Part shown: positions 59,689 through 63,780 of the stretch, piece after piece
Position numbering within the stretch: the stretch's first letter is position 1
Layout of the letters: every line of letters begins with the position of its first letter
Source: Glycocaulis albus
GTDB taxonomy: Bacteria; Pseudomonadota; Alphaproteobacteria; Caulobacterales; Maricaulaceae
NCBI RefSeq assembly: GCF_014639075.1
Contig: NZ_BMFS01000003.1
Coordinates: 186,001 to 250,000 of the forward strand
Direction: 5' to 3'
Length of the DNA: 64,000 bases
Notes under the pieces: generated by a model
Databases searched by the model: none
What the model was told of the DNA's origin: nothing
The model's input: only the letters and a program-made list of their open reading frames with translations
Made by a program: the position numbers and the translations under genes

Positions 59689-59765
59689 TGGTGTCCCCGA
59701 CAGGATTCGAACCTGTGGCCCCCAGATTAGGAATCTGATGCTCTATCCTGCTGAGCTACGGGGAC
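59689..59765 (-). tRNA. tRNA-Arg (anticodon CCT)
   Basis: Full cloverleaf on the minus strand: acceptor GTCCCCG/CGGGGAC, D-arm GCTC...GAGC, anticodon stem TCAGA/TCTGG around loop TTCCTAA (anticodon CCT, reading AGG), T-arm ACAGG-TTCGAAT-CCTGT, discriminator A. The 3' CCA is encoded (59689-59691). 77 nt with CCA. No integration signs (direct repeats or integrase) seen beside it. Confidence 0.97.
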
Positions 59766-59850: not shown

Positions 59851-60711
59851 CTATTGCGGCAGGGTGAAGCTGTAGTCGTGACGGGAAAGCGGCTCCAGAT
59901 TGCCTGTTTCGTAGGTATCGACCCGGACCTCGCCGCCCTCCAGCACAGTAAACACGCGATACATCGGCGTGTGGTGCGTTTCATCGGGTATCTTGGTGCG
60001 TTCCAGCGCCGGGATGTGAAGATAGTGGACGTGGCCGATCTGACGGGAGTGAACGGTCCGGTCCATGTCCATGTGCAAATCACCGGAAATCACGGCCGCA
60101 AGATTGGCCTGACCGACAACTTCCTGAAAACGCGGATTTTGAACCCCCTTGTCGGCGTCTTCCGGGTACACGCCTGCCTGGGCAGCATGAACGACCAGGA
60201 AGACGGGCCGCGGCGCGGCAGCCGCGATCTGCTCCACTATCCAGTCAATGCCGTCATCGTTGAAGTCCCGGCCAAAATCGGGAGAGGCGTGCACCATGAC
60301 GACCGGCCCCGGATCACGCACATAGCTCGGTTCGGTAATGTCCGGATTCCACTGGCGGGCAAATTCGAGATAGCGCTCGACAGTGTCGTTATGCTCTTCA
60401 TTGCCCATGATCGGATAAAATGGCCGGGTCAGTGATTGCAGGGCCGGCGTGACATTCTCGTACTGTATCCCGGTGCCCTTGTGGGCGATATCGCCTACCC
60501 CGACCACAAAATCGATACGCCCGGATTCCGCCAATGCATTGACGTCCACAACGGCCGCTTCCACGCCGGGAAACAGGGCGCACGGTTTGGGCTCGGCATC
60601 GCCCAGAACCGCGAAGCGGAGCAATACCGGGTCGTGGGCGTTGTCCTGCGCGACGGCTCCGCCCGCCAGTGCCAGCGCCGCGATGAGCGCGGCGGCAAAT
60701 CCCTTGATCAT
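59851..60711 (-). CDS. Secreted metallophosphoesterase
   Basis: 286 residues with a signal peptide (KGFAAALIAALALAGGAVAQ), so periplasmic or secreted. Calcineurin-like motifs in order: FAVLGDAEPKP (D), VVGVGDIAHKG (GDxxH), IMGNEEHND (GNEEH, the GNH motif), VVHAAQAG (H) and VISGDLHMDM (GDxH). The active site binds two metals and hydrolyses phosphoesters. It diverges from a TonB-dependent receptor; a Pho-box-like array lies between them, suggesting use in phosphate scavenging. Confidence 0.9.
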   Translation of the reverse strand: MIKGFAAALIAALALAGGAVAQDNAHDPVLLRFAVLGDAEPKPCALFPGVEAAVVDVNALAESGRIDFVVGVGDIAHKGTGIQYENVTPALQSLTRPFYPIMGNEEHNDTVERYLEFARQWNPDITEPSYVRDPGPVVMVHASPDFGRDFNDDGIDWIVEQIAAAAPRPVFLVVHAAQAGVYPEDADKGVQNPRFQEVVGQANLAAVISGDLHMDMDRTVHSRQIGHVHYLHIPALERTKIPDETHHTPMYRVFTVLEGGEVRVDTYETGNLEPLSRHDYSFTLPQ

Positions 60712-60852
60712 CTTGCTTTCATTCCCTGAGTTGCGAAACCGGCCGGCAGCCGCACCAGACCTTGCCCGGTTTCTGTGACAGAGGCGTGAATCGGCGCTTC
60801 ACTGCCGGAGCAGGGGCCAGATGCTGCCTCCCGTCATCAAACCGACGCGCAT

Positions 60853-60918
60853 TCGTGACCCCGCCGTCATCGAAACATCACCAAGACTTCACCGATCCGT
60901 GACCGGCGTGTCACCGGG
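60853..60918 (+). promoter_or_regulatory. Six tandem 11-bp Pho-box-like units
   Basis: Units start at 60853, 60864, 60875, 60886, 60897 and 60908: tcgtgaccccg, ccgtcatcgaa, acatcaccaag, acttcaccgat, ccgtgaccggc, gtgtcaccggg. Positions 4, 6 and 8 are T, A and C in all six, position 5 is C or G, position 7 C or T. PhoB boxes are 11-bp direct repeats with TGTCAY-type cores. A tctaac sequence at 60925-60930 could be the -10 of the receptor gene. Confidence 0.6.
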
Positions 60919-60993
60919 CCTGTGTCTAACGCCTCTGAACCGGATGCATGAGTGCAGCCCGGCTTTTTGACGTTATTCAGGGGGACTTCACCG

Positions 60994-63780
60994 ATGACGA
61001 TACGCAATCTGCGCCTGTCGGGCGTATCTGCAGCCGTGCTCGCACTTGGCCTCAGCGCGATGGGCGCCGATGCGCTTGCCCAGCATCAGCTCACCGGCCG
61101 TGTGGTCGATGAACGCGGCAATGGCCTTCCGGGCGCCCGTGTCAGCGTACCGGAGCTGGGCCTGACCACTTCGACCGACCGCCGTGGCGAGTTCACCTTC
61201 CTCTCCCTGCCTGCAGGCGAGGCCCGGCTCGAGGTCAGCTATCTCGGCCTGCCGCCTGGCGTAAGGGGTGTCAACATCTCGGCCAGCGACATCAATACGG
61301 TCACGTTCACGCTTGCCGACTCGGCCGATGGCGTGGAGCGTATCATCATCACCGGCCAGATCCTCGATTCGGCCGCGCGGGCCCTGAACCAGCAGCGCAC
61401 CAATAATGCCACCACGAATATCGTGTCGGCTGACTCCATCGGCCGCTTCCCCGATGCCAATATCGCCGAGGCGCTTCAGCGCGTGCCGGGCTTTGCCGTG
61501 GCGCGCGACCAGGGCGAAGGCCGCTTCATCAATCTGCGTGGCGCGCCGGGCGATTTCACCGGCATTTCGGTGGACGGAGTGCAGATCGGATCGCCCGACC
61601 CGACCACACGCGCGGTCGATCTGGATACCATCCCGTCCGACATTGTCGCGGCGCTGGAAGTCTCCAAGACCCTTCTGCCCAACCAGGACGCGGATTCGAT
61701 TGCCGGTTCGGTCAATCTGGTGACACGCTCGCCATTCGACCGGCCAGGCCTGAACATTTCCGGTCAGGCGGGTCTCAGCTATAACGAGTTCGGCGACGGC
61801 AATGACCGGCGCGCCTCGGGCACCATCTCCAACACATTTGGCAATGACCGTTTCGGCGCGCTGCTCTCGGCGAGCTATTCGCGCACTGACCGCCAGGTCG
61901 ACAATATCGAATCCAGCTGGATTATCGAGGATGTGGCGGGTCAGGACGTGTTCCTGGTCGATGAGCAGGAGTTCAAGGACTATGACACGGTGCGCGAACG
62001 CACCGCGCTCACCGGCTCGCTGGAATTCCGCCCCGATGATGCAAACCGCTTCTTCCTTACGGGCAGCTATTCGCGCTTCCGCGATGATGAATTCCGCAAC
62101 ACGCTTCTCATCATCTATGCCGATGGCGATCTGCAGCCGGGCGCCACGGACGGCAATGCCACCTGGAACGAGTCGCGGATCGAGAAAGAGCTGCGCCACC
62201 GTATCGTGCAAAACGAGATCACCACGATACAGGTGGGCGGCGAACATCTGATCGGTGGCGGCGAACTGGATTACTCGCTCTCCTATGCACGCTCCGAACA
62301 GTTCAACCCGCGCCGTGCCCAGTTTCTGTTCCGCTCCTCGATCCGGCCGGATCTGAGCTATGACTTCTCGAACGCCGACAGCCCGGCCCTGTCGCTGTTC
62401 ACGTCCGGCGAGCACCTGGACCTTTCCGGCTACGGGTTCCGCGAAAACGTGTTCCGCGGCCAGACGACCGAGCAGGACGAGATCGCCGCACGCATCAATT
62501 ATGCTTTCAGCGGCTCCTTCCTTGCCAACCCCACCGAGTTCCGCACCGGCGCAGCCGTGCGCAGCCGTGAGGTCACCAACGATAATGAGCAGTATCGCGA
62601 CCGCCGCGGCAGCGCCAACCCCGGCCAGCCGATCTCGGCCTTCCTGAGCACCGAGCGCTCGCAGAACTTCAGCTATTTCCTTGGCAACAAGTATGATCCG
62701 TCGGCTGTGACCGCTTACTGGAATGCCAATGAAGCCCAGTCTACGGACGCAGCCTCTCGCCGGGTGCCGCAATCCACCACGGCGGACTATGGTGCCGAAG
62801 AGCGCATTTATGCCGCCTACGGCATGGCGACGGTGGAAGCCGGGGCCACCCGGATCGTGGCAGGTGTGCGTGTGGAGCACACGCAGTTCGAGGGCTCCGC
62901 TCCCTTCATCGATGACAACGAGAATATCAGCATCAACCGCGTCAGCCGGGATTATACCAACTGGTTCCCGAACCTGACCGTGCGTCATGAGTTTTCCGAC
63001 AATCTGATCGGCCGGGTCGCCCTGACTCGCGCGATCAGCCGTCCGCGCTATCAGGATGTGGTGCCGCGGGTGGAGGAAGGTGACCGCAGCTCGCTGCCGG
63101 TCAGTGTCAGCCGTGGCAATCCGGACCTGCGCGAGACCATGTCGAACAATTTCGATGCGGGCCTTGAATACTATTTCACCCCGCTCGGCCTCGCCGCGGT
63201 CAATGTGTTCTACAAGGATCTCGAGGACTATGAGTTCACCCTCGTCCGCAACGGGACGTATGACGGGCTCGCGGCAGAAATCTCGCAGGCGGAAAACGCG
63301 CCGGACGGGTATATCCGCGGCGTGGAGCTGACCTACCAGCAGCAATTCACCTTCCTGCCGGGCCTTCTGTCCAATACGGGCGTGTTGGCGAACTACACCT
63401 ATACGGATGCGGAGATCACGCTGGCTTCGGCCATCTCGGGCAGCCGTACACGCATCCTGCCCGGTCAGTCGGATACGACGCTGAACCTTGCGGTCTTCTA
63501 TGAAACCGAGCGTTTCAGTGCCCGCCTGTCCTGGAACGACCGCTCCGACTATCTCAATGAGGTCAATGGCGAGGATTCACGCCTCGACATTTACTGGGAA
63601 GGCCGCAGCCAGCTCGATTTCTCGGCCAGCTATGATGTGAATGAGCGGCTGGGCGTGTTCTTCGAAGCGAAGAACCTCACCAATACCGAAGGTGTGCGCT
63701 ATGCGGGCGATCGCAGCCGCGTGATCGAGCGCGAGGCGTTCGGTTACACGCTGTTTGGCGGTCTGCGCTTCAACTTCTAG
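60994..63780 (+). CDS. TonB-dependent receptor (Caulobacter/Xanthomonas type)
   Basis: 928 residues from ATG 60994 behind gggga. Signal peptide (LSGVSAAVLALGLSAMGADALAQ), then a carboxypeptidase-regulatory-like domain (TGRVVDERGNGLPGARVSVP; residues about 31-115), then the plug (SADSIGRFPDANIAEALQRV, DQGEGRFINLRG; the family signature) and a 22-strand barrel ending YTLFGGLRFNF with terminal Phe. Receptors of this group import large or complex nutrients using TonB energy. The neighbouring phosphoesterase and the Pho-box-like array suggest a phosphorylated substrate, such as an organophosphate; this is inference. Confidence 0.95.
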   Translation: MTIRNLRLSGVSAAVLALGLSAMGADALAQHQLTGRVVDERGNGLPGARVSVPELGLTTSTDRRGEFTFLSLPAGEARLEVSYLGLPPGVRGVNISASDINTVTFTLADSADGVERIIITGQILDSAARALNQQRTNNATTNIVSADSIGRFPDANIAEALQRVPGFAVARDQGEGRFINLRGAPGDFTGISVDGVQIGSPDPTTRAVDLDTIPSDIVAALEVSKTLLPNQDADSIAGSVNLVTRSPFDRPGLNISGQAGLSYNEFGDGNDRRASGTISNTFGNDRFGALLSASYSRTDRQVDNIESSWIIEDVAGQDVFLVDEQEFKDYDTVRERTALTGSLEFRPDDANRFFLTGSYSRFRDDEFRNTLLIIYADGDLQPGATDGNATWNESRIEKELRHRIVQNEITTIQVGGEHLIGGGELDYSLSYARSEQFNPRRAQFLFRSSIRPDLSYDFSNADSPALSLFTSGEHLDLSGYGFRENVFRGQTTEQDEIAARINYAFSGSFLANPTEFRTGAAVRSREVTNDNEQYRDRRGSANPGQPISAFLSTERSQNFSYFLGNKYDPSAVTAYWNANEAQSTDAASRRVPQSTTADYGAEERIYAAYGMATVEAGATRIVAGVRVEHTQFEGSAPFIDDNENISINRVSRDYTNWFPNLTVRHEFSDNLIGRVALTRAISRPRYQDVVPRVEEGDRSSLPVSVSRGNPDLRETMSNNFDAGLEYYFTPLGLAAVNVFYKDLEDYEFTLVRNGTYDGLAAEISQAENAPDGYIRGVELTYQQQFTFLPGLLSNTGVLANYTYTDAEITLASAISGSRTRILPGQSDTTLNLAVFYETERFSARLSWNDRSDYLNEVNGEDSRLDIYWEGRSQLDFSASYDVNERLGVFFEAKNLTNTEGVRYAGDRSRVIEREAFGYTLFGGLRFNF

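Follow-up and report, generated by a model that had tools for sequence, protein, structure and literature searches.

The window, that is, the whole stretch of 64,000 nucleotides of Glycocaulis DNA analysed here, carries two divergently oriented genes, one for a metallophosphoesterase on the minus strand and one for a TonB-dependent receptor on the plus strand (Table 1). An earlier note on this DNA had placed its repeats in such a divergent phosphoesterase/TonB-receptor region, and the domain matches agree with that description. The starts of both genes were judged by eye (receptor ATG at 60994; phosphoesterase ATG at 60711, minus strand). A tRNA-Arg (CCT) gene is located at 59689-59765, just downstream of the phosphoesterase. 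The same tRNA-Arg sequence was seen by eye upstream of the receptor in two other Glycocaulis genomes, G001 and G002, which are without the phosphoesterase gene.

Table 1. Features of the receptor-phosphoesterase intergenic region and its flanking genes (window coordinates)
Feature	Position	Strand	Basis
Metallophosphoesterase, likely signal peptide (by eye)	59851..60711	-	PF00149, E = 5e-8
Two-unit PHO-box-like site GATTCACGCCT CTGTCACAGAA facing the phosphoesterase	60771..60792	-	Similar boxes before orthologues
Outlying in-phase unit CCGTCATCAAA	60831..60841	+	Sequence; matching register in G003, G001 and G002
Degenerate in-phase position CCGACGCGCAT	60842..60852	+	In phase, without T at position 4
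Unit TCGTGACCCCG, first of six, weakly conserved	60853..60863	+	Alignment
Five conserved PHO-box-like 11-bp units CCGTCATCGAA ACATCACCAAG ACTTCACCGAT CCGTGACCGGC GTGTCACCGGG	60864..60918	+	In phase in G003, G001, G005 and G002
Candidate -10 hexamer TCTAAC	60925..60930	+	Exactly 10 bp past the last GTCAC
TonB-dependent receptor, TIGR01782 subfamily, N-terminal CarboxypepD_reg; presumed target gene	60994..63780	+	Domain matches

Between the two genes, six 11-bp units are arranged head to tail over 66 bp (60853-60918), in the order TCGTGACCCCG CCGTCATCGAA ACATCACCAAG ACTTCACCGAT CCGTGACCGGC GTGTCACCGGG. All six units carry T, A and C at positions 4, 6 and 8, with exact 11-bp phasing, and the coordinates and phase given in the earlier note were found to be right. 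The register reaches further upstream to 60831, giving eight positions, seven of which have T[CG]A[CT]C. PHO boxes have been defined as 11-nt direct repeat units with the core CTGTCAT in E. coli and GTTCACC in Streptomyces coelicolor (PMC4415409). The units of the array display GTCATC, ATCACC, TTCACC, GTGACC and GTCACC at the corresponding place, and against the minimum of at least two 11-nt direct repeat units for a PHO box, there are six consecutive units here and eight positions in register.

The strength of the repetition was evaluated in 338 kb of DNA of the same genome, a non-random background composed of the 64-kb window and 14 hand-chosen stretches, two of them chosen for pst genes. 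When six 11-bp units with at least three perfectly conserved columns were counted with no motif assumed, the array was the sole place found. The same count at periods of 9, 10, 12 and 13 gave 2, 0, 1 and 0 places, respectively, and five places were obtained for five units at period 11 with three perfect columns. Tandem Repeats Finder did not report an array at 60853-60918, even at a score of 30, because the core columns alone repeat. A tandem repeat array without a regulatory role was discarded, as likeness over whole units is missing and the repetition is confined to the core columns. By repetition alone, the array is notable but not overwhelming, and it is conservation that decides. The sequence GACTTCACCG occurs again at 60984-60993, just before the start codon and 99 bp (9 x 11) past its copy in the array, which is probably a coincidence.

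In four of the five other genomes of the genus (G003, G001, G005 and G002), five units are found in one phase before the receptor, the third unit of G002 carrying TCAA. The remaining genome, G004, has two receptor copies, and the arrays are degenerate in both. The distance from the beginning of the five units to the receptor start is approximately 130-142 bp in the window, G003, G001 and G002; in G005, it is 199 bp to the start of the receptor match. In the alignment of the five species, the T and A columns are invariant and spaced exactly 11 bp, and the fourth of the five conserved units reads TGAY rather than TCAY in every one of them. Conservation is weaker in the first unit (60853-60863) than in the five that follow. 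The outlying unit CCGTCATCAAA has counterparts in the same register in G003 (CTGTCACCAAA), G001 (CTGTCATCAAA) and G002 (CCGTCATCGAA). In G005, a similar element, located by eye, precedes the first conserved unit by 24 rather than 33 bp and is therefore out of phase. All five species of the alignment share an outermost CYGTCAYC element, with this shift in G005. The receptor of G005 is just 31-32% identical to that of the window (L058 8422-11358), and its neighbour genes are syntenic. Since the array is kept next to a receptor of approximately 32% identity, the operator was apparently retained as the receptor diverged or was replaced, and a receptor swap under a retained operator is possible.

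Regarding the gene that the array serves, matches to the phosphoesterase were obtained in six of 61 genomes, namely the own genome, G003, G005, G053 and two remote ones. No match was found in the genomes of G001 and G002, both of which have the array. The array is therefore assigned to the receptor, and its role as a phosphoesterase operator was ruled out on the same ground. The earlier note had proposed a low-phosphate regulon covering both flanks. The comparisons support that proposal and refine it: the conserved array serves the receptor, and the phosphoesterase has a weaker two-unit candidate box of its own. Boxes were also found before the phosphoesterase copies of G003 (GTTTCACCGCC TTGTCACAAAA) and G005 (GTTTCACTATG CTGTCACACAA). 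In G053, where the protein is 67% identical, the candidate box is weak. Two-unit scores of 11.7-13.8, such as that of the phosphoesterase box, arise by chance in some regions, so the case for this box is its conservation in three genomes.

Matches above the curated cut-offs for PhoB (TIGR02154) and PstB (TIGR00972) were obtained in the own genome, and other open reading frames of the cluster resemble phoR, pstC, pstA and phoU (named by eye). Upstream of pstC, four 11-bp units are present, TTGTCGCAAAA CTGTAACGCGA CCGTCATATTT GGGTGATCGAT, and four such units precede pstC in five genomes of the genus. In Caulobacter, pstC-pstA-pstB-phoU-phoB is PhoB-dependent (PMC11208175). From this and from the conservation, we infer that the pstC units represent a PHO box. 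A matrix built only from the pstC promoter units of the genus, a check of the kind suggested in the earlier note, was scored on each strand of the 338 kb. For 4, 5 and 6 units, the array ranked second, behind pstC alone. With 2 and 3 units, it ranked just 8th and 6th, respectively. The best windows of this matrix begin at 60831 and take in the poor unit at 60842. When read on the minus strand, the array also ranked 3rd to 5th with 4-6 units, because GTGAC and GTCAC are complementary; therefore, its orientation rests on conservation and on the -10 element.

The reverse search, with a matrix derived from the receptor array, recovered pstC weakly: with four units, it came sixth among the distinct places. 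A model restricted to the receptor array (R1) gave a self-match in the own genome with E = 8.6e-23 and a next match of 0.44, with 150 of 503 first-look candidates scored. It does not list pstC and is locus-specific, being silent on the number of Pho sites. When the receptor and pstC arrays were aligned jointly, the register was lost, and no model was built from this alignment.

With 4-6 units, the best match of the receptor-array matrix outside the array was just upstream of a PF12849 (pstS-like) gene. As a PHO array, this match was discounted, since it is largely a palindrome with 9-bp arms and its phase in G003 is off by one base (by eye). The palindrome, AAGATGTCACACAGCTGACATCTT (L074 9587-9610, own C4), is shared by G003 and G001; a hairpin and an inverted PHO-like site are both conceivable. 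Among the regions upstream of pstS-like genes (own and 14 others), most of the distant ones had no clear array. The pstS-like gene itself (own C4:54764-58675) lies outside the pst operon, after ABC transporter genes that look, by eye, to be of the phosphonate type.

Conservation beyond the genus was assessed with a pooled matrix of Glycocaulis receptor and pstC units, by comparing the best three-unit score at period 11 with those at nine other periods. At the level of the order, 25 of 30 homologue loci were scored, one of them from the same genus (G004); the own locus, three training loci and one partial gene were excluded. The mean score was 15.0 at period 11 versus 1.1-2.8 at the nine other periods, and a score above 14 was reached by 15 of the 25 loci at period 11 and by none at any other period. 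After re-estimation of the starts from open reading frames, the mean was 14.3, with 13 loci above 14 at period 11. As a control, 20 other TonB receptors with weaker matches were hand-picked from the same genomes (two are near-identical and one has an uncertain start). Their mean was 4.2 at period 11 and 0.5-3.2 at the others, with one of 20 above 14 at period 11 and one at period 16.

The best 80 homologues among the GTDB matches listed, a set that includes a single Glycocaulis record and no fewer than two pairs of near-duplicates, gave a mean of 9.1 at period 11 versus 1.5-2.8 at the other periods. Scores above 14 were obtained for 21 of these 80 at period 11 and for 0-2 at the others. Twelve of the 80 are Bacteroidota by title, and just one of these scored above 10. 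Homologues in other genera reach 5-8 positions under a maximal-sum rule that admits poor units, and many have 2-4. All these counts ignore kinship among the loci, with estimated starts and with distant arrays called by one matrix. The 11-bp periodicity, the persistence of which in close relatives was at stake in the earlier note, is kept in distant receptor homologues and, within the genus, in four of the other five genomes.

The promoter geometry was also evaluated. The 10-bp spacing between the last GTCAC and the candidate -10 hexamer is repeated in G003 (TCTAAC), G001 (TTTAAC) and G002 (TGTAAT). No clear -10 was seen at the expected place in G005 (TCGGTT) and G004 (TCGATT). The N10 spacing is that of E. 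coli phoA (TATAGT) and pstS (TATTTT), as read from the MG1655 record. Among 35 of 108 regions, those with an array score of at least 18, the -10-like score peaked exactly 10 bp after the last GTCAY, with a mean of 1.55; both the -10 weights and the rules for trimming the array end were our own. The next-best offset, eleven bases further, scored 0.60. The peak at offset 10 was reached by none of 20,000 shift permutations, also when the six Glycocaulis entries were left out. A search for a plain sigma-70 promoter in 60600-61050 found none, an absence of little weight given that shuffles expect just 0.1.

The array shares its head-to-tail 11-bp units, GTCAY core and -10 at 10 bp with E. coli phoA and pstS. 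The four positions of E. coli pstS include an imperfect third one, CTTACATATAA, which resembles CTTACGCCTAT in G003. The E. coli sites differ in their fewer units (2 and 4), their AT-rich linkers and in not having a TonB receptor as target. With the PhoP operators of S. coelicolor (pitH2, glpQ1 and glpQ2), the array has in common the 11-nt direct repeats, the GC-rich GTTCACC core and an extent of up to six units over 64 nt, divided into core and ancillary units (PMC7866108, PMC4415409). PhoP is actinobacterial, and the target genes are others. Six units had been considered unusually long for PhoB. Their number is indeed unusual, yet six footprinted units, four core and two ancillary, have been described over 64 nt at pitH2 (PMC7866108), and the array would therefore be a long PHO-box operator that is ordinary in kind. 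Likewise, the units are GC-rich compared with the enterobacterial box, as had been remarked, but this is not odd given the GTTCACC core of S. coelicolor (PMC4415409).

For Caulobacter crescentus, the PhoB regulon comprises, besides the pstC operon, various TonB receptors, a phytase and a phosphodiesterase; the passages of that account cited here give no operators for the TonB receptors (PMC11208175). One Caulobacter stalk receptor, CC0171, is reported to be constitutive (PMC2996285). Among the matches listed for open-licence PubMed Central, no title or abstract was seen that describes PHO boxes before this receptor family.

Taken together, we consider it probable (about 0.88) that the array is a long PhoB operator, formed by several PHO boxes end to end and comprising up to eight 11-bp half-sites, of which five are strongly conserved; it would switch on the receptor under low phosphate. 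The low-phosphate reading, put forward in the earlier note as a coherent one, appears well supported by comparison: the pstC matrix, the conserved periodicity and the presence of PhoB and PstB in the genome all point to it. Under scarce phosphate, PhoR would phosphorylate PhoB, dimers of which would bind head to tail along the units. The promoter-proximal units, located 10 bp upstream of the poor -10 TCTAAC, would recruit RNA polymerase for transcription of the receptor, and the additional upstream units would probably raise cooperativity or occupancy. The phosphoesterase would probably be induced at the same time through the two-unit box on the opposite strand. Genuine PHO boxes are in some cases found at genes that do not respond to phosphate (PMC4415409), and in E. 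coli many PhoB sites, mostly intragenic, are inert (PMC10294691).

Other explanations were weighed against this operator. A different OmpR/PhoB-family protein with a similar 11-bp recognition might bind the array in response to another signal; direct repeats are common as sites of OmpR-family regulators, and eight OmpR-type DNA-binding domains (Trans_reg_C) are encoded in the own genome. Such a regulator is unlikely, since the matrix built from pstC alone finds the array (the reverse search finds pstC weakly) and phosphatases and phytases adjoin many genes of this receptor family. That the periodicity arose by chance in GC-rich intergenic DNA could be argued from the silence of Tandem Repeats Finder at score 30 and from the five places with five units and three perfect columns, but it is already contradicted by the conservation, the matrix ranking and the period controls, and it deserves practically no weight.

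A further question is how much of the array matters. The promoter-proximal 2-4 units may suffice, the upstream ones being decaying remnants, as the poor or variable units at 60842 and 60853 and the many homologues with 2-4 units would suggest. We regard this as possible but rather doubtful, given that all five species of the alignment have the outermost CYGTCAYC (in G005 not in phase) and that 5-8 positions are also reached in other genera, even if the maximal-sum rule admits poor units. A long PhoB operator at the receptor would make this genome a natural series of operator lengths, with 2 units at the phosphoesterase, 4 at pstC and 8 positions at the receptor. The series lends itself to studying how PhoB output depends, in strength or threshold, on operator length.

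The neighbourhood of the receptor family was analysed in hand-picked loci. The analysis drew on 42 of the 80 named loci, most of them Pseudomonadota, which yielded 78 downstream open reading frames; the scan covered 47 of them, belonging to 39 loci. In raw counts, Phytase (PF02333) was found in 15 of the 47, Metallophos in 8, and PhoD and a purple-acid-phosphatase domain in 2 each. On the upstream side, 45 of 84 open reading frames were scanned, and GGDEF was the commonest family (10 of 45). Among the 25 of 43 upstream families shown, inorganic pyrophosphatase appeared three times and phytase, PhoD and alkaline phosphatase once each. A PF02333 phytase was found in none of the six Glycocaulis genomes, which rules it out as the local partner in this genus.

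The role of the receptor is likely the uptake of organic phosphorus under phosphate limitation. It would import a phosphorus-containing ligand, such as an organic phosphate, into the periplasm, where phosphoesterases would release phosphate for Pst. To our knowledge, few TonB receptors have known phosphorus substrates, and this family provides a concrete, testable candidate for one. More tentatively, long phased PhoB operators of 5-8 positions might be conserved in this one TonB-receptor family across Pseudomonadota as a cooperative, threshold-setting Pho output, the family being a dedicated importer of organic phosphorus (e.g. inositol phosphates) that acts with neighbouring phytases and phosphoesterases. 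The apparently widespread Pho control of the family is a more useful finding than the array itself. By promoter evidence together with gene neighbourhood, a large and poorly annotated family of TonB receptors would be linked to phosphorus scavenging well beyond one genome.
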